DNA from: Flavobacterium sp. NRK F7 | Lineage (GTDB): Bacteria; Bacteroidota; Bacteroidia; Flavobacteriales; Flavobacteriaceae | DNA: 64,000 nt | Assembly: GCF_024054195.1 (NCBI RefSeq) | Contig: NZ_JAMXLB010000001.1 | Coordinates: 1,667,624 to 1,731,623 of the forward strand | Direction: 5' to 3' | Made by a program: the position numbers and the translations under genes | Shown: one piece after another, positions 26,441 through 54,574 of the stretch | Layout: each line of letters starts with the position of its first letter | Position numbering within the stretch: position 1 is the stretch's first letter | Notes under the pieces: model-generated | Told to the model about the DNA's origin: nothing | The model's input: the letters and a program-made list of their open reading frames with translations, nothing else | The model's database searches: none

Positions 26441-26532
26441 AGCTATTTCCTGCTATTCGCTATATCTTTTATTTTACTTCGACAAGCTCCGATAAAATAA
26501 AAGGATGCCGCTACTATCAGGGCTATTACGCT
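26441..26532. repeat. Imperfect palindromic intergenic element
   Basis: About 90 nt form a large imperfect hairpin between the phosphomutase and GT2 genes. The perfect inner arms CTTTTATTTTA (26466-26476) and TAAAATAAAAG (26493-26503) enclose a CTTCGACAAGCTCCGA core, and outer arms with CCTG...ATCTTTT / AAAAGGAT...CAGG also pair. I recall similar elements scattered in flavobacterial genomes. Confidence 0.55.
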
Positions 26533-44571: not shown

Positions 44572-45993
44572 ATGAACACAGCTATCAACGGAAACGATTT
44601 ATTAGCCTTAGGGTATGCAGAAGGAAGTTTAATTGGTATTGCTTTAAAATGCAACCGAAAAAGAACGGGTTTTACCAAAGAACAAATGCTGGATAACTAT
44701 ACTAAAGTCTTAGCACAACCCGAAACCTATTTGGATGATGCTTTATTCGGTGCATTGGCTCAAGCCATTATTGAAAAATCCAATGAAAAGCCAGAAGATT
44801 TCATTGCGTTAAACGATACCCCAGCTGCATTTGCAATGTATGGAGCCGATCATATTGAAGCAGGAGCAAGACAACAAATGGAAGTAGCGATGCAATTGCC
44901 AGTAACTGTTGCTGGGGCTTTAATGCCCGATGCGCACCAAGGATATGGATTGCCAATTGGAGGAGTGTTGGCTACCAATAATGCTGTAATTCCGTATGGA
45001 GTAGGTGTCGATATTGGATGCAGAATGGCATTATCGGTATACGATATTCCAGAATTATTTTATTACGAAAACGAAGCCAAGTTCCAACGAGAATTGGTTG
45101 CACATACCAAGTTTGGTGCGGGTCATGGATTTCACGGTCAGTACAAAGCCGATCACGAAGTGATGGAACGAAAAGAGTTTGCGAACCACAAATTCATCCA
45201 GCAATTGAAAGACAAAGCGTGGTCGCAATTAGGAAGTTCGGGTGGTGGTAATCACTTTGTCGAATTTGGAATCCTCCAATTTGAAAAAGACGATGCCGTG
45301 TTGAACATTCCAAAAGGAAACTATGTAGCCTTGTTAACACATTCGGGTTCGAGAGGTTTTGGTGCTACCATTGCCGGACAGTATACGAAGTTGGCCAAAG
45401 AACATTGCAAACTTCCTGAAAAAGCGAAAAACTTAGCCTATTTAGGTTTGGATACCGAATTAGGTCAGGAATACTGGATTGCCATGAATTTAGCTGGCGA
45501 TTATGCTTCCGCTTGTCATGAAGTAATTCATAACAAAATGGCTCAAGCATTAGGAGCCACCGTTTTAGCCAAAGTGGAAAACCATCATAATTTTGCTTGG
45601 AAAGAGATTCATAATGGAGAAGAAGTGATTGTGCATCGAAAAGGAGCTACACCAGCAGCCAAAGGTGTGATGGGAATTATTCCAGGAAGTATGACCGCAC
45701 CCGGATTTTTAGTACGTGGAAAAGGAGAAGCGGAAGCTTTGCATTCGGCATCGCATGGCGCAGGGAGACAAATGAGTCGAACACAGGCGATAAAAAACAT
45801 TACGAAAAAGGAGATGCAAGCGATTTTAAAAGACCATGGTGTTACCTTAATTGGAGCTGGTTTAGACGAAGCTCCAATGGCATACAAAGACATCAACCAA
45901 GTAATGGCAAGCCAAGAAGCCTTAGTCGATGTCGTTGCCAAGTTTACTCCTAAAATGGTACGAATGGCTGATGATGGAAGTAGGGAGGATTAA
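44572..45993 (+). CDS. rtcB: RNA ligase RtcB
   Basis: RtcB joins RNA ends carrying a 3'-phosphate or 2',3'-cyclic phosphate to a 5'-OH using GTP and Mn2+, the ends left by anticodon nucleases. This 473-aa protein has the metal site GVDIGCRM (Asp147, Cys150), GGGNHFVEFG, HSGSRGFG, VENHHNFAWKE, and the guanylylated His in HSASHGAGRQMSR. Compared with E. coli RtcB (Cys78), it has about 70 extra N-terminal residues. A palindromic operator pair precedes it. It lies upstream of a region with repeats, a tRNA array and a slipin gene, a grouping that resembles bacterial RNA-repair loci. Confidence 0.94.
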   Translation: MNTAINGNDLLALGYAEGSLIGIALKCNRKRTGFTKEQMLDNYTKVLAQPETYLDDALFGALAQAIIEKSNEKPEDFIALNDTPAAFAMYGADHIEAGARQQMEVAMQLPVTVAGALMPDAHQGYGLPIGGVLATNNAVIPYGVGVDIGCRMALSVYDIPELFYYENEAKFQRELVAHTKFGAGHGFHGQYKADHEVMERKEFANHKFIQQLKDKAWSQLGSSGGGNHFVEFGILQFEKDDAVLNIPKGNYVALLTHSGSRGFGATIAGQYTKLAKEHCKLPEKAKNLAYLGLDTELGQEYWIAMNLAGDYASACHEVIHNKMAQALGATVLAKVENHHNFAWKEIHNGEEVIVHRKGATPAAKGVMGIIPGSMTAPGFLVRGKGEAEALHSASHGAGRQMSRTQAIKNITKKEMQAILKDHGVTLIGAGLDEAPMAYKDINQVMASQEALVDVVAKFTPKMVRMADDGSRED

Positions 45994-46002
45994 TTTTTTA
46001 AC

Positions 46003-46210
46003 AAAACCCTTACCAGCCATGCGCTAGACCTAAACGTTTACGTCTCCCTACGTAAAACTTTGGGTATCTAGCGTAAAATTTTACGTCCCGGCACGTAAAA
46101 TTTTACGTAGGCAGACGTAAAACTTTGGCTTCCTAACCTAAAATTTTGGGTTCCTAACCTAAACGTTTCGGTCTGTAACGTAAAATTTTAGGTTATTGGG
46201 TTAAAATGGA
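46003..46210. repeat. Phased A4T4 palindrome array 1 (21-22 bp period)
   Basis: Nine units are centred on TAAAATTTTA-like cores whose TAAA begins at 46031, 46053, 46074, 46096, 46118, 46139, 46160, 46181 and 46202. Steps are 21 or 22 bp, that is two helical turns. The best units read ACGTAAAATTTTACGT. The array is preceded by a header (46003-46027; AAAACCCTTACCAGC plus TGCGCTA) that recurs before array 2. Phased A4T4 tracts bend DNA, so this is predicted curved DNA or a protein-binding array. It is not coding. Confidence 0.8.
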
Positions 46211-46228
46211 TATATAAAAGTTTTAGAT

Positions 46229-46812
46229 ATCCCATCAGAAACTAAAAATAGGATAGAGCAATTTATGAGACCCTTACAAGGTGACAATTTTGTGTGTATA
46301 CTTGTTTCATAAACGCTATCCTTAATCTTGTTATGCTGTCAAGCATCCCATCAAAAACTAAAAAATAGCATAAGGCAATTCATGAGATCCTTACAGGGTG
46401 ACAAGTTTGTGTGTATACTTATTTCATAAACGCTATCCTCAATCTTGTCATAAAGCCTGTACTGAGCTTGTCGAAGTATAAGCATCCCATCAGCAATTAA
46501 AAAATAGGATAAAGCAACTCATGTTCCCGAAGTTTCGGGATTACAGGGTGACAAGTTTGTGTGTATACTCATTTCAAATACTATCCACAATATTGTCATG
46601 CTGTCAAGCATCCCATCAGAAACTAAAAAATAGCATAGAGCAACTTATGAGACCCTTACAGGGTGACAAGTTTGTGTGTATACTTGTTTCATAACTCTAT
46701 CCTCAATCTTGTCATAAAGCCTGTACTGAGCTTGTTGAAGTATAAGCATCCCATTAGAAATTAAAAAATAGCATAAGGCAATTCATGAGATCCTTACAGG
46801 TTGACAAGTTAA
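46229..46812. repeat. Five tandem palindromic repeats (116-139 bp units)
   Basis: Five units begin ATCCCATCAG or near variants at 46229, 46345, 46484, 46610 and 46748. Each contains an AAAATAG(G/C)ATA segment, ACAGGGTGACAAG and, except the truncated last copy, TTTGTGTGTATAC. Within a unit, TTGTCA...ATCCCAT pairs imperfectly with ATGAGA...GTGACAA, a MITE- or REP-like palindrome. Two inter-unit segments carry CTGTACTGAGCTTGT(C/T)GAAG inserts. Confidence 0.8.
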
Positions 46813-46839
46813 CGCCCAAAATCCTCCTTCAAAATGACT

Positions 46840-47006
46840 AAAACCCATACCAGCAGTGCGCTAAGCATAAAATTTTAAGTCCCCGACATAAAATTTTAAC
46901 GCACCAACTTAAAATTTTAAGTCTCTAGGGTAAAATTTTACGTCCTACTACATAAAATTTTAAGTTCTCTACCTAAAAGTTTAACTTCTCGAGTTAAAAT
47001 TTTAGA
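46840..47006. repeat. Phased A4T4 palindrome array 2 (21-bp period)
   Basis: After a copy of the array 1 header (46840-46863), seven TAAAATTTTA-type cores begin at 46868, 46889, 46910, 46931, 46953, 46974 and 46995, steps of 21 or 22 bp. It mirrors array 1 on the other side of the tandem repeat. Confidence 0.8.
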
Positions 47007-50938: not shown

Positions 50939-50946
50939 TATATTTG
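50939..50946 (+). promoter_or_regulatory. -7 promoter box of small ORF 1
   Basis: TATATTTG lies 8 nt before the ATG at 50955, so the transcript would have almost no leader. Confidence 0.6.
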
Positions 50947-50954
50947 CCCTCGAA

Positions 50955-51065
50955 ATGAGAACACAAAACACACATAGTATAGCACTTGTAAAGTCAATTT
51001 ATCGCTTAGGAGGAGATTTTCCTCGTAAACGAAAAGGGTGTTTTGTATCATTATGTATGCGTTAA
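50955..51065 (+). CDS. Tiny ORF 1 (36 aa), possible leader or signalling peptide
   Basis: The ORF begins MRTQNTHSIALVKSIYRLGG and ends KGCFVSLCMR, basic and with two cysteines. It is flanked by a consensus promoter and a strong terminator, making a self-contained unit of about 170 nt. It shares an H-(S)-I-A-L-V segment near its N-terminus with tiny ORF 2. It could be a leader peptide, a small toxin or the coding part of a regulatory RNA; nothing establishes which. Nothing else is seen in 50768-50938. Confidence 0.5.
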   Translation: MRTQNTHSIALVKSIYRLGGDFPRKRKGCFVSLCMR

Positions 51066-51088
51066 AGTAAGCGATTATATCATATTTC

Positions 51089-51122
51089 AAAGCGTCCTTT
51101 TACTCAAAAGGACGCTTTTTTT
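51089..51122 (+). terminator. Terminator after tiny ORF 1
   Basis: AAAGCGTCCTTTT pairs with AAAAGGACGCTTTTTTT. Confidence 0.92.
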
Positions 51123-51348
51123 ATGTTCAAAAACGAAGTAAAAACAGTAATAATCATAAAAATGAGAAAAATTTTTAAAAAAATAGTGAATGCGAAGTAA
51201 ACCCGAGCTGAAATAAACAAAAATGAGTAACCAAATGAGAGACAGTCATTTGCAAAATTCGAAGTATCTGTTGTAAAACGGATCGGGATTGTATTGCTTA
51301 AATTTAGGTTTAACTAATTGAAAATCAATAAAATAAATTAAAAAAAGA

Positions 51349-51381
51349 TTTGGAAGTTCCGTTTTTTTCACTTTATCTTTG
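51349..51381 (+). promoter_or_regulatory. Promoter of tiny ORF 2
   Basis: TTTG at 51349-51352 and TATCTTTG at 51374-51381, 21-nt spacer, match the flavobacterial consensus. A leader of about 125 nt follows, containing GAATTACGAATTAG-type repeats. Confidence 0.65.
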
Positions 51382-51511
51382 CCTCAGAAAATTAGAAGAA
51401 ACAATATCAATATCAATTGCAATAACAATAATAAAGCAATAGCGATTAAGAATTACGAATTAGAAATTACGAATTAATAATAATTTAGAATTCATATAAT
51501 ATACAATAAAA

Positions 51512-51634
51512 ATGAAACGAGATTTTAAACAACATATAGCACTAGTAGACAGAAAAGCAAAATCAGCTTTCGTAGGATGCAATCTTCCGAGTTTTTATAG
51601 TGATTATAATTGGGTGTCTCCATTTAGGGAATAG
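51512..51634 (+). CDS. Tiny ORF 2 (40 aa), possible leader or signalling peptide
   Basis: The ORF begins MKRDFKQHIALVDRKAKSAF and ends WVSPFRE. A consensus promoter precedes it and a terminator lies 29 nt after the stop, the same arrangement as tiny ORF 1. The shared HIALV segment suggests the two are related. The segment 51123-51348 between the units holds no gene I can support. Confidence 0.5.
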   Translation: MKRDFKQHIALVDRKAKSAFVGCNLPSFYSDYNWVSPFRE

Positions 51635-51662
51635 TATGTAGTATACTATTATATAAATATGG

Positions 51663-51689
51663 AGCACCTTCAAAAGAGGTGCTTTTTTT
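51663..51689 (+). terminator. Terminator after tiny ORF 2
   Basis: AGCACCT pairs with AGGTGCT, followed by seven T's. Confidence 0.88.
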
Positions 51690-51696
51690 ATGTATG

Positions 51697-51869: not shown

Positions 51870-51943
51870 AATGTCATAGCTCAACTGGAAAGAGCGTTCG
51901 CCTACGAATCGAAAGGTTGAAGGTTCAAATCCTTCTCGCATTA
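51870..51943 (+). tRNA. Diverged accessory tRNA-Arg(ACG)
   Basis: A 74-nt cloverleaf has acceptor AATGTCA/TCGCATT (one C-C mismatch), D-arm GCTC/GAGC with GG, anticodon loop CTACGAA (ACG), 5-nt variable loop, T-arm GAAGG-TTCAAAT-CCTTC and A73. Arg identity bases A20 and C35 are kept. CCA is not encoded, as for the ordinary tRNA-Arg at 61237, which is very different in sequence. It is the first of a tightly packed array. Confidence 0.8.
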
Positions 51944-51948
51944 CATCT

Positions 51949-52022
51949 AATTTCGTAGCTCAGTTGGTTAGAGCAATCGCCTTTTAAGCGATGGGTCTCA
52001 GGTTCAAATCCTGACGGAATTA
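51949..52022 (+). tRNA. Accessory tRNA-Lys(TTT)
   Basis: The cloverleaf has a complete acceptor stem AATTTCG/CGGAATT (one G-U), D-arm GCTC/GAGC, anticodon arm ATCGC-CTTTTAA-GCGAT (TTT), T-arm TCAGG-TTCAAAT-CCTGA and A73. A1-U72 is unusual for a lysine tRNA. The gap to tRNA-Arg is 5 nt. Confidence 0.88.
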
Positions 52023-52027
52023 CATGA

Positions 52028-52043
52028 GTCTTTAGAAAGGGAC
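52028..52043 (+). repeat. Array motif GTCTTTAGAAAGGGAC, copy 1
   Basis: This 16-nt hairpin-forming motif ends 1 nt before the tRNA-Asp start. It recurs with one change at 53177-53192 in the tail of the second permuted tRNA. Confidence 0.6.
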
Positions 52044-52044
52044 T

Positions 52045-52117
52045 GGCTTATTGGGGTTACTGGCTAACCTTCCCGACTGTCTCTCGGGAGAAACGGGTTC
52101 GATTCCCGTATAAGCCG
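52045..52117 (+). tRNA. Accessory tRNA-Asp(GTC)
   Basis: The acceptor GGCTTAT/ATAAGCC is perfect, with G73. The anticodon arm is CCCGA-CTGTCTC-TCGGG (GTC) and the T-arm ACGGG-TTCGATT-CCCGT. Asp identity elements G73, G34-U35-C36, C38 and G2-C71 are kept, but position 37 is a pyrimidine and the D-stem needs a G-U pair. Confidence 0.82.
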
Positions 52118-52122
52118 CAAAT

Positions 52123-52194
52123 GGTGTTTTTAGCTTATTTGGTAAAGCATTGAACTGTGAATTCAAAGAGCAGGGTTCGAATCCCGAAAACACC
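52123..52194 (+). tRNA. Accessory tRNA-His(GTG)
   Basis: G-1 pairs with C73, the hallmark of tRNA-His. The acceptor is GTGTTTT/AAAACAC, the anticodon arm TTGAA-CTGTGAA-TTCAA (GTG) and the D-arm GCTT/AAGC. The T-stem is weak, with only three sure pairs around TTCGAAT; a 1-nt register ambiguity in the A-run leaves the 3' end at 52194 or 52195. Confidence 0.8.
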
Positions 52195-52202
52195 CTAAAT
52201 AA

Positions 52203-52275
52203 CTGGGAAGATAACGATTGGTTGTTTACCTGCTTTGGATGCAGGAGGTTGTAGGTTCGAATCCTACTTCCCAGA
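52203..52275 (+). tRNA. Accessory tRNA-Pro(TGG)
   Basis: The acceptor CTGGGAA/TTCCCAG has the Pro-specific C1-G72 and A73. The anticodon arm is CCTGC-TTTGGAT-GCAGG (TGG) and the T-arm GTAGG-TTCGAAT-CCTAC. The D-arm is abnormal (3-bp AAC/GTT) and U8 is missing. Confidence 0.8.
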
Positions 52276-52281
52276 CATAAT

Positions 52282-52365
52282 GGAAGTACGTCAGAGTTGG
52301 AGAGCTGAGGCGGTCTGTAACACCGTTGTCTTTTGACTGAGTAGGTTCGAATCCTACTACTTCCA
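52282..52365 (+). tRNA. Accessory tRNA-Tyr(GTA), long variable arm
   Basis: The acceptor GGAAGTA/TACTTCC is perfect with A73. The D-arm is TCAG/CTGA, the anticodon arm GCGGT-CTGTAAC-ACCGT (GTA), the class II variable arm GTC-TTTT-GAC and the T-arm GTAGG-TTCGAAT-CCTAC. Position 8 is C instead of the near-universal U. Confidence 0.85.
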
Positions 52366-52369
52366 CTAA

Positions 52370-52714
52370 ATGAAGTTTAATTTAAAACAAAAGAAGATGA
52401 GACAAGACATTTTAAAACGATTTTTGACCAACACGGATGAGACGGGTAGATTTTTGATGAAGTCGAGAATTACTGGAATCATCTATTTTGTAGAACCCAT
52501 TTATACGGGTAAAACACCACAATGGGGCGATGTAGATGTGGTGACTAAAAAATTAACAGGTCAGTATGGTTCCAAGTATACAGGAGCCATAACCAAGAAA
52601 GAATCTCTTATAACGGAAGAAAACGGATTTGTGAATATTGGCTATTTCAAAGGAAGTCCGTTTGGAGCCATCGATGTACGCGATAAAGAACATCAAAAAC
52701 GCATGGGATTATAA
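52370..52714 (+). CDS. Unknown 114-aa protein inside the tRNA array
   Basis: This is a cytosolic, mixed alpha/beta protein of 114 aa, or 105 aa from the ATG at 52397. Its body reads TGRFLMKSRITGIIYFVEPI, PQWGDVDVVTKKLTGQYG and GFVNIGYFKGSPFGAIDVRDKEH. I do not recognise the family. It begins 4 nt after tRNA-Tyr and precedes the permuted tRNAs, so it is probably on the same transcript, linking a protein directly to this RNA array. Confidence 0.65.
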   Translation: MKFNLKQKKMRQDILKRFLTNTDETGRFLMKSRITGIIYFVEPIYTGKTPQWGDVDVVTKKLTGQYGSKYTGAITKKESLITEENGFVNIGYFKGSPFGAIDVRDKEHQKRMGL

Positions 52715-52998
52715 GTTTTTTTACAACGAAAAATAATTGCGCACACTGTTTTGAATCTTTGTTCAGCGATAAAGAAAAAACGTTCTTTTAATAAAAATGA
52801 TTATGAGATTTAGCTACGCTGAACTAAAGTTTCTCCTTACGTCGAAATGACAATATTAGGATAAAAATATCAAGCAAGTCCTGTTGGGTGTTTCTGTATA
52901 GCACTAATGTGATGCGTTTTGCACGAAGGTGTATGAAGTCGTATTATGCAACTTGGCTTGGAGGTTTTGGGTTGTTTTCCAAAAAATAATCCACCAAA
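52715..52998 (+). other. Non-coding segment and hairpin leader before the permuted tRNAs
   Basis: No gene is seen in this segment. It includes a fragment of a dispersed element (ACGTCGAAATGACA near 52840). A hairpin leader runs from 52957 to 52999: CTTGGAGG pairs with CCACCAAAG (one A-A mismatch and one bulge), enclosing TTTTGG/CCAAAA. It ends exactly where the first permuted tRNA begins. Confidence 0.5.
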
Positions 52999-53082
52999 GT
53001 TTTCGCAGGTTCGAATCCTGCTACAGCCACTTTGGCTGTATGGCGGAGTTGGTCAAACGCGCAAGATTGGGTTCTTGTAAAC
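52999..53082 (+). tRNA. Circularly permuted tRNA-like gene 1 (class II, Leu-like)
   Basis: The halves are in reverse order. The 3' half comes first: variable-arm strand GTTT, T-arm GCAGG-TTCGAAT-CCTGC, acceptor TACAGCC and A73. After only CTTT the 5' half follows: acceptor GGCTGTA (7 of 7 pairs with TACAGCC), TG, D-arm GCG-GAGTTGGTCAAA-CGC, anticodon arm CAAGA/TCTTG, then variable strand AAAC, which pairs with GTTT. The break is thus in the variable-arm loop. The D-arm resembles tRNA-Leu. The anticodon loop is only 6 nt (TTGGGT), so decoding is uncertain. In ordinary order the acceptor would have 1 of 7 pairs. Confidence 0.72.
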
Positions 53083-53162
53083 TGTAACTTTTGGATGTCA
53101 TCGGTTCGATTCCGATATACTCATCATGGAGTATTAGCTCAGCTTGGTTAGAGTGCCAAAAA
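53083..53162 (+). tRNA. Circularly permuted tRNA-like gene 2 (class I, Tyr-like GTA)
   Basis: This gene directly abuts permuted gene 1. The 3' half comes first: loop TGTAAC, anticodon strand TTTTGG, variable ATGTC, T-arm ATCGG-TTCGATT-CCGAT, acceptor ATACTCA. After TCAT the 5' half follows: GGAGTAT (6 of 7 pairs), TA, D-arm GCTC-AGCTTGGTTA-GAGT, G26, then CCAAAA, which pairs with TTTTGG. Spacing is canonical on both sides, so the break falls in the anticodon loop. The joined loop reads CTGTAAC (GTA) if C53082 belongs here; ends are uncertain by 1-2 nt. Without permutation neither half has a partner. Confidence 0.72.
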
Positions 53163-53192
53163 CAGACTGTAAATCTGTCTTTAGAAAGAGAC
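53163..53192 (+). other. Tail of permuted tRNA 2: Tyr-type hairpin and array motif copy 2
   Basis: A complete tyrosine-type anticodon hairpin ACAGA-CTGTAAA-TCTGT (53162-53178) is followed by GTCTTTAGAAAGAGAC (53177-53192), near-identical to the motif before tRNA-Asp. Beyond this, 53193-53476 holds hairpins such as ATTGGTTT/AAACCGAT but no gene I can support. Confidence 0.55.
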
Positions 53193-53476
53193 GTACGACT
53201 CTTAAAAAGGTACATCATTGAAAATATTTTGGTTTTTATCAGTTTCGTTATTTTTCAAAAAAAAGCGAAACACTTACGAAGAAACCTGAACAGGGCTTCG
53301 TTTTCAAAACCGTTCTTTTGCTTTGCTGTGTGACGATTGGTTTTTTATAAACCGATACCATAAAACAGTACACCATGAGAATGCTTCTGTTTACTAACCT
53401 TATTCCGTTTTGGGTGAAGGATAAAAACCAAAAATTTTCTTTTTAAAAGCAAATTAAAATTTAAAAATATAAAGAA

Positions 53477-54574
53477 ATGATTCGATTAATTACTATTAAT
53501 GCTTACCAAGTTGGTTTGGTATTTGAACGCGGTAAGTTGGTACAAATTTTAAAAGAAGGTAAATACTGGATTTGGGGAAAGAAAGAGGTTAAACTCTTTG
53601 AGATGAAACATTCTTTTGTGGCTCCAGTCGAATTGAATATTTTGTTAGAGAACCAAGAATTGGCTGCTATGCTAGAGATTGTTGAAGTAGGCGATACCGA
53701 AATGGCGTTGTACTTTACCAATGGTATATTTAAAGAAGTATTGCAAACCGGTCGTTATGCGTTCTGGAAAGGCTATTTGAAGAATGAATTCGTAAAGGTA
53801 GATTTAACAAAAGTTGAGATTACTGAAAAAATCGAAAGAGGTTTGTTAGAGAACATCAAATTGAAAGTATACACTCGAAAATTTCAAGTAGCAAGCTATG
53901 AGAAAGGGTTGTTGTTTATCAATGGTATTTTCAACAAAGAGTTAACCGCAGGAACCTACTACTTTTGGAACAATGCCATTCCAGTAGAAGTGGTTTATGT
54001 AGATATGCGTCAAAAGCAAATGGAAATTTCTGGTCAGGAATTGTTGACCAAAGATAAAGCAGCTTTGCGTATTAACTTCTTTGTGAATTTCAAAGTAACC
54101 AATATTATCAAAGCGGTTATCGACAACAAAGAGTATGAAAAACAATTGTATGTATTGATGCAGTTGGCGTTGCGTGCTTTTGTAGGCGGATTTACTTTGG
54201 ATGAATTGTTAAACAAAAAAGAGAGCATTACCGAAATCATTTTGGAAGACACACGAAATAAAGCTGCTGCTTTAGGGGTTGTGATTCAAGAAGCGGGTAT
54301 TCGTGATGTGATTTTACCAGGTGATATGAAAGAAATCATGAACCAGGTTTTGGTAGCAGAGAAAAAAGCACAAGCGAACAGTATTATGCGTCGTGAAGAA
54401 ACCGCAGCGATGCGTAATATGTTGAATACTGCCAAATTGATGGAAGAAAATGAAATGTTGTGGAAATTGAAAGAAATGGAATATGTAGAAAAGATTGCAG
54501 ATAAGATTGGAGAGATTACCATTTCTGGAGGTGGCAACGTTATCGGACAATTGCGCGAAATTTTTGTGAAATAG
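53477..54574 (+). CDS. Slipin / SPFH domain protein
   Basis: This 365-aa protein is of the stomatin/slipin type. Three related segments precede and enter the SPFH domain, at residues 10-35, 75-110 and 141-176, each with the pattern GL-x-F-x-x-G-(7-8)-L-x-x-G-x-Y-x-F/I-W followed by VD-type strands. The SPFH core (MEISGQELLTKDKAALRINFFVNFKVTN...LDELLNKKESITEIILEDTRNKAAALGV) and a C-terminal helical oligomerisation region (VLVAEKKAQANSIMRREETAAMRNMLNTAKLMEEN) follow. No clear transmembrane helix is seen. Slipins of this kind occur in RtcB RNA-repair gene neighbourhoods, consistent with rtcB and the tRNA array here. Confidence 0.86.
   Translation: MIRLITINAYQVGLVFERGKLVQILKEGKYWIWGKKEVKLFEMKHSFVAPVELNILLENQELAAMLEIVEVGDTEMALYFTNGIFKEVLQTGRYAFWKGYLKNEFVKVDLTKVEITEKIERGLLENIKLKVYTRKFQVASYEKGLLFINGIFNKELTAGTYYFWNNAIPVEVVYVDMRQKQMEISGQELLTKDKAALRINFFVNFKVTNIIKAVIDNKEYEKQLYVLMQLALRAFVGGFTLDELLNKKESITEIILEDTRNKAAALGVVIQEAGIRDVILPGDMKEIMNQVLVAEKKAQANSIMRREETAAMRNMLNTAKLMEENEMLWKLKEMEYVEKIADKIGEITISGGGNVIGQLREIFVK

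Follow-up and report, generated by a model that had tools for sequence, protein, structure and literature searches.

Within a 64,000-nucleotide stretch of the Flavobacterium sp. NRK F7 genome (the window), positions 52999–53162 comprise two tRNA-like units, each arranged in the order T-arm, acceptor, and D-arm, as seen by direct reading and by script. The question raised by this locus is whether the units are tRNA genes with swapped halves, as proposed in a first-pass annotation of the window, or parts of a different RNA. Here, the locus is compared with its relatives, and the units are found to be probably not tRNA genes, being instead modules of a predicted noncoding RNA of ~570 nt.

RESULTS

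Architecture of the tRNA-like modules

The features of the locus are listed in Table 1. In module 2, the acceptor strands ATACTCA (53117–53123) and GGAGTAT (53128–53134) form six of seven pairs. In module 1, an extra pair, A53029–T53033, extends the fully paired acceptor hairpin to 8 bp with a 3-nt loop. In the ordinary order, with GGCTGTA facing ATACTCA, one of seven acceptor pairs forms, and the Rfam tRNA model gives the middle piece, read in that order, 28.6 bits, short of the cut-off of 29. The first-pass annotation had described swapped halves with complementary acceptors (7/7 and 6/7 pairs, versus 1/7 in ordinary order) as well as GTTT/AAAC and TTTTGG/CCAAAA complements. Both sets of complements are present in the window sequence, and the acceptor pairing is conserved with compensatory changes, as described below. 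ARAGORN reports a "tRNA-???" at 53033–53125 that is a chimera of the 5′ part of module 1 and the T-arm of module 2; the same site is named Pro or Leu in L001, L003, L015, and other loci.

Table 1. Features of the locus and its neighborhood in window coordinates.
Feature	Position	Strand	Description
RtcB RNA ligase gene	44572..45993	+	PF01139, 276.6 bits
tRNA array, six genes	51870..52366	+	Arg-acg, Lys, Asp, His, Pro, Tyr; ARAGORN
Small ORF, 114 aa	52370..52714	+	between array and RNA; relatives in 20/80 loci
Predicted noncoding RNA	52866..53437	+	ends approximate; 5′ motif, conserved 5′ domain, sequence kept to T-run at ~53435
5′ domain	52875..52960	+	stem CAAGTC 52875-52880 / GGCTTG 52955-52960, inner helices; motif GTTGGGTGTTTC at 52883
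Hairpin, loop around TCCAAA	52969..52990	+	helix 4 of alignment A1; 92.2% paired, 3/6 pairs changed on both sides
tRNA-like module 1, Leu-like	52999..53082	+	closing GTTT/AAAC; YrlA model 21.2 bits on 52979-53081
Module 1 closing pair	52999-53002 / 53079-53082		GTTT / AAAC
Module 1 T-arm	53005-53021		T-stem GCAGG/CCTGC
Module 1 capped acceptor hairpin	53022-53040		TACAGCC 53022-53028 with GGCTGTA 53034-53040, 7/7 pairs
Module 1 D-arm	53043-53060
Module 1 anticodon-like arm	53062-53077		6-nt loop
tRNA-like module 2	53089..53161	+	YrlA model 27.8 bits on 53092-53160, E 0.00098
Module 2 closing pair	53089-53094 / 53156-53161		TTTTGG / CCAAAA
Module 2 T-arm	53100-53116
Module 2 capped acceptor hairpin	53117-53134
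Module 2 D-arm	53137-53154
Anticodon-like arm after module 2	53162..53178	+	ACAGA-CTGTAAA-TCTGT (GTA)
Possible pseudoknot	53187..53213	+	AGAG/CTCT + GTAC/GTAC; pair types at S2: CATC/GATG, GCAT/ATGC, GTAC/GTAC
Slipin / SPFH (Band_7) gene	53477..54574	+	PF01145, 92.4 bits

Conservation of the permuted layout in Flavobacterium

Scanning with the slipin protein gave 179 relatives. The 80 best-matching loci were retained, and their titles all read Flavobacterium or Flavobacteria. Two correctly spaced T-arms are located upstream of slipin in 76 of the 80 fetched loci and in the window (77/81), and these 77 loci constitute the set used below, with the T-arm pair of L071 and L076 set by hand. L027, L046, and L054 each have a single module, and L009 falls outside the set since its contig starts too near slipin.

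An acceptor hairpin of at least five contiguous pairs is found for module 1 in 76 of the 77 loci and for module 2 in 70 of the 77, versus 13.1 and 12.0 expected from base shuffles. This criterion, which counts contiguous pairs from the base of the T-arm, was adopted after seeing the outcome of a fixed 7-bp, free-loop test, in which the best module-1 score was only 4/7 in 24/77 loci and many stems proved to be 5 bp. The hairpins are diverse, with 49 distinct versions in module 1 and 57 in module 2, and all five pair positions vary. Directly after the module-1 hairpin, TA or TG is present in 76/77 loci, followed by the D-arm. The ordinary order yields a mean of 1.97 of five pairs (69/77 loci); the corresponding value of 5.0 for the permuted order is uninformative, since the loci were chosen for five pairs.

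Alignment A2 comprises 28 of the 77 loci and leaves out the Leu-like type of the window, which is not alignable. In A2, 98.5% of cells are paired, versus 29.6–43.6% in slid controls, and 19 of 31 pairs have changed on both sides. The Leu-like type itself is represented by ten loci including the window, all of which have both hairpins with at least five pairs. At the level of sequence, each module has the permuted fold, and this fold is conserved with compensatory changes.

Capped acceptors and a retained elbow

In 38 of the 77 loci, the acceptor of module 1 is 14 nt long and consists of a 5-bp stem with a 4-nt loop. These loops are GCAA (16), GTAA (16), CTCG (3), GAAA (1), CTAG (1), and TTCG (1), such that 33/38 are of the GNRA type. 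A 5-bp acceptor closed by a tetraloop cannot become a 7-bp acceptor. NCCA does not follow the 3′ acceptor strand of module 1 or module 2 in any of the 77 loci. Among 65 units outside the genus, NCCA follows the acceptor in three (L110, L119, and L129), which might be processed to tRNA as real permuted tRNAs are. The elements that build the tRNA elbow are kept: the T-loop reads TTCGANT nearly throughout, and the D-loop GG is present in 76/77 and 77/77 loci for the two modules. Given their closed ends and retained elbow, the modules should be bindable by tRNA-acting proteins and not chargeable. We infer that the closed acceptor ends are never opened.

A larger predicted noncoding RNA

The limits 52999–53162 assigned to the locus in the first-pass annotation are too narrow: conserved sequence extends from ~52866 to ~53437. 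Its suggestion that one cut would free both units likewise fits the conservation poorly, since the units are embedded in one larger conserved RNA. The fold z-score is −4.1 for 52861–53450; for the module stretch alone, it is −1.9, with 7 of 200 shuffles equally good. In single-sequence folding of the window, the minimum-energy fold lacks the permuted acceptor of unit 2, and the centroid has most of it.

The 5′ motif sits 121–133 nt before T-arm 1 in 77/77 loci. In alignment A1 (45/77 loci), 96.0% of the cells of the 5′ domain are paired, versus 34.7–51.9% in slid controls, and 12 of 29 pairs have changed on both sides. After module 2, an anticodon-like arm with 5 bp and a loop of exactly 7 nt is found in 70/77 loci versus 26.7 in shuffled sequences, with other loop sizes near background, and 67/77 loci have both a T33-like and a purine-37-like residue. 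The anticodon-like triplets are CAA (24), GAA (19), GTA (7), TTT (7), AAA (5), and others. The arm of the window, with GTA, is nearest to that of the genome's own tRNA-Tyr.

Toward the 3′ end, the signals are less pronounced. A permissive search for the pseudoknot matches 76/77 loci versus 44.5 shuffled, which is weak, such that its support comes from the pair types at S2 (Table 1), and a long-range 3′ helix is also weak (mean pairs 10.7 within a locus, 9.5 between loci, and 8.1 shuffled). RNAalifold yielded little on the 3′ domain. Upstream of the RNA, a promoter-like AATCTTTG/AATATTTG element, picked after looking, is present in 64/77 loci versus 12.8 shuffled, and the strict motif TAnnTTTG is found in none of the upstream regions checked. 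Over 52700–53480, no Rfam 15 family reaches its cut-off, and no tmRNA match is listed at E values up to 10. A tRNA-mimicking noncoding RNA is very probably encoded at this locus, and we infer that it is made.

Occurrence outside the genus and number of modules

A hold-out model, R1, was built from the 5′ domain alone, without any tRNA-like part, and was used with stricter filters above 40 genomes. R1 matches 25 of 121 genomes of the genus, 25 of 249 of the family, and 13 of 395 of the phylum, with the window's own genome counted each time; the 13 phylum-level matches all lie within the same order. Among the 35 loci found with R1 (own locus excluded), two T-arms are present in 28, three in three, four in two, one in one, and none in one, and slipin is located downstream on the same strand in 34. 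Read from sequence, the number of modules per locus is one to four. The maximum of four T-arms per RNA was seen in L139 and L140, from two genomes of one genus (oriented locus 1501–1900). L126 has the 5′ domain at E 7e-16 without a T-arm and without slipin, and an RtcB-like frame (29% identity) is next to it instead; this locus is perhaps a broken copy.

The set from outside the genus consists of 32 loci, including four slipin loci from the same class that belong to different orders or families, and was scored with a T-arm pattern and hairpin length slightly wider than those used for the 77 loci. Of its 65 T-arms, 55 are followed by a hairpin of at least 5 bp versus 13.0 shuffled, and in 51 the hairpin is followed by TA or TG versus 1.8 shuffled. 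Thus, the recurrence of the layout in relatives that the first-pass annotation proposed to look for is borne out, with acceptor complementarity kept in the Flavobacterium loci and in loci beyond the genus. Of the four distant slipin loci, L151 (GCAA loop) and L155 have a clear capped module, and the remaining two have a T-arm with an imperfect hairpin only. No match was found in the phages and plasmids searched, and viral contigs gave none to one pattern.

Genomic neighborhood

The window and F. profundi TP390 (L001) share a slipin at 100% identity, though their tRNA arrays are different. Compared with the best chromosomal copy of the same anticodon, the array tRNAs of the window are identical in 55/78 (Lys), 48/77 (Asp), 50/76 (His), 55/78 (Pro), and 59/91 (Tyr) columns; for Arg-acg, the compared set holds no copy of the same anticodon. 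This divergent array possibly supplies spare tRNAs that escape nucleases. At least one tRNA is called by ARAGORN within 4 kb upstream in 57/77 loci, and three or more in 46/77. The 114-aa ORF has no match in Pfam, NCBIfam, or PADLOC, and a PADLOC run on five proteins gave no match. Upstream of the array, at 50940–51690, two short frames, each followed by a G+C-rich hairpin and a T-run, were noted by eye and are possible attenuators.

RtcB is encoded within the 10-kb flank in 24/80 loci (one being a 38-aa piece) and directly after slipin in L008, L029, L031, and L069. Among Flavobacterium genomes, it is present in 23 of 25 RNA-positive versus 7 of 20 RNA-negative genomes, the latter sampled from 96 negatives (Fisher p 8e-5, uncorrected for kinship), and it lies at most 35 kb from the RNA in 18 of the 25 RNA-positive genomes. 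The RtcB link drawn in the first-pass annotation is retained on these counts; the accompanying idea, that RtcB seals tRNA genes at this locus, is unsupported. Relatives of a WYL regulator are encoded in 24 fetched loci. Of 40 related genomes positive for the RNA or slipin, 38 lack a TROVE/Ro60 protein, as does the genome of the window. In L157, an 8.5-kb contig (G079:C21) holds a WYL regulator, tRNA array, RNA, slipin, tRNA-Leu, tRNA-His, and Ro60, and in G302, Ro60, RtcB, and WYL are encoded together, 32 kb from the RNA. By gene position, the predicted RNA is linked to slipin, the tRNA array, and RtcB.

Two further observations concern other parts of the window. The intergenic region after rtcB (46047–47004) contains two blocks of A+T-rich palindromic units (around TAAAATTTTA) with a 21-bp period, and repeats of ~117 bp separate the blocks. 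A Flavo-1 RNA (RF01705) is located at 26442–26528 on the minus strand (74.4 bits).

DISCUSSION

Relationship to known RNAs

The nearest known kind of RNA is the YrlA Y RNA (RF02553), which also has a T-arm, a hairpin-closed acceptor, and a D-arm, in the same order, in place of a tRNA. The YrlA model matches 12 of 12 further loci, with a best score of 46.1 bits; the scores there and in the window lie below its gathering cut-off of 69, and the model also matches one ordinary tandem tRNA junction (L132:431-492). YrlA-type genes are located near rtcB in some bacteria, according to the available parts of PMC8394870 and PMC7790460. In contrast to YrlA, the RNA described here is larger, has one to four modules, an anticodon-like arm, and a 5′ domain of its own, is linked to slipin with Ro60 mostly missing (38 of the 40 genomes searched), and scores below the YrlA cut-off. 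Short closing stems are seen (CTAT/ATAG; two pairs counted in A2), and no end-to-end Ro60 stem was identified.

Two other systems share individual traits. In Anabaena, as far as the available portions of the reports go, loss of TrcR derepresses the tRNA array of the L-array/trn operon jointly with rtcB and a slipin gene (PMC10272220). These genes, of the same three kinds as here, act together in the TrcR regulon (PMC10272220, PMC9938897). Unlike here, the Anabaena genes lie apart, and an RNA of this sort is not mentioned in those portions (PMC10272220, PMC9938897). Similar to tmRNA, including its permuted two-piece forms, the RNA holds a tRNA-like fold inside a bigger RNA. The ordinary tmRNA of this genome is encoded elsewhere (C1:2036112-2036510, 151.6 bits with RF00023), and the module stretch gives only partial or sub-threshold tmRNA matches. 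The module type was known already; what appears new is the multi-module RNA, its anticodon-like arms, and its link to slipin, mostly without Ro60, and priority for these is uncertain. In the open-licence PMC literature searched, which did not include the main Y RNA papers, no description of a multi-module, slipin-linked RNA was found.

Alternative explanations

The first-pass annotation read the units as true permuted tRNA genes that would be excised, circularized by RtcB, and cut open at the acceptor by RNase P to give usable tRNAs. Like the circularly permuted tRNA genes known from algae and an archaeon, the units place the 3′ half first with a short acceptor linker; the window acceptors are full length (7/7 and 6/7), RtcB is linked, anticodon-like arms are present, and a few relatives outside the genus, such as L119 and L129, have 7-bp stems with NCCA. 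The known pathway, however, relies on BHB motifs and a splicing endonuclease and is described for algae and one archaeon in the available part of PMC3978253. Here, several units lie inside one larger conserved RNA, many acceptors are too short and end in a tetraloop (38/77 module-1 units), NCCA is found in none of the 77 loci, and most loci have a module 1 without an anticodon hairpin of its own. Such a splicing endonuclease is not known from bacteria. Cleavage, ligation, and RNase P opening are unsupported, and tRNA genes of this kind are very improbable here. That the site is debris of a decaying tRNA array, with neighboring halves matching by chance, could be suspected from its position after an array and from the resemblance of its pieces to different tRNAs. 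Against debris, the 5′ motif keeps its fixed distance in all 77 loci, and the compensatory changes seen across these loci and in other genera contradict it, leaving it a negligible probability.

A strict Ro60-type Y RNA, with a terminal stem that binds Ro60, would account for a module fold that is that of YrlA, and Ro60 does occur on the contig of the RNA in G079 and beside RtcB and the WYL regulator, 32 kb off, in G302. With TROVE in two of 40 genomes, the window's not among them, and scores below the YrlA cut-off, we regard this as improbable. The RNA could also be the leader of the slipin mRNA and act in cis, with a tRNA-like fold that would sense tRNAs, nucleases, or tRNA-binding proteins and switch slipin expression. 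Its position upstream of slipin on the same strand in 34 of 35 model-found loci fits such a leader, as does the T-run of the window, which ends ~40 nt before the slipin start. Against this stand the 3′ T-run itself, followed by a spacer variable in length and sequence, and the several capped modules, which a leader would not need; a leader is unlikely. The reading that we favor, and consider rather likely, is that the two permuted units belong, as modules, to a conserved, predicted noncoding RNA of ~570 nt that serves as a tRNA mimic in an RNA-repair island.

Proposed role of the RNA

The closed ends, the kept elbows, the island, and two published parallels together suggest a mimic that acts as bait or as a platform when tRNAs are damaged. 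The modules retain the elbow (T-loop and D-loop GG) together with anticodon-like loops, yet should not be chargeable. During attack on tRNAs by anticodon nucleases or under other translational stress, the RNA might serve as bait or docking site for proteins involved in tRNA cleavage, modification, or repair; RtcB would reseal cut tRNAs, the divergent array would deliver spare ones, and slipin may position the complex at the membrane. A comparable function, inhibition of an anticodon nuclease by the tRNA-like domain of YrlA, was put forward as a suggestion by Hughes in 2020, in the available part of PMC7790460. A decoy role for the RNA is proposed tentatively, by analogy. Counting against the favored reading are the fold of the module stretch alone (z −1.9), YrlA scores below the cut-off, the scarcity of Ro60, the loci with one module or none, the imperfect hairpins of two distant slipin loci, the three NCCA units outside the genus, and the presence of RtcB in 7/20 RNA-negative genomes. 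In its full form, the proposal is that accessory anti-ribotoxin islands of Bacteroidia, with spare tRNAs, RtcB, slipin, and sometimes WYL or Ro60, may carry a bait RNA composed of one to four permanently capped mimics with varied anticodon arms, which we hold to be possible, at somewhat less than an even chance.

As a practical warning, gene finders report a chimeric "tRNA" at this locus. If the proposal is right, swapped-order tRNA mimicry would extend beyond the Ro60 Y RNAs into a larger, multi-module RNA and would be tied to RtcB and divergent tRNA arrays, and the function of bacterial tRNA-like RNAs encoded near rtcB during tRNA cleavage would become open to test.
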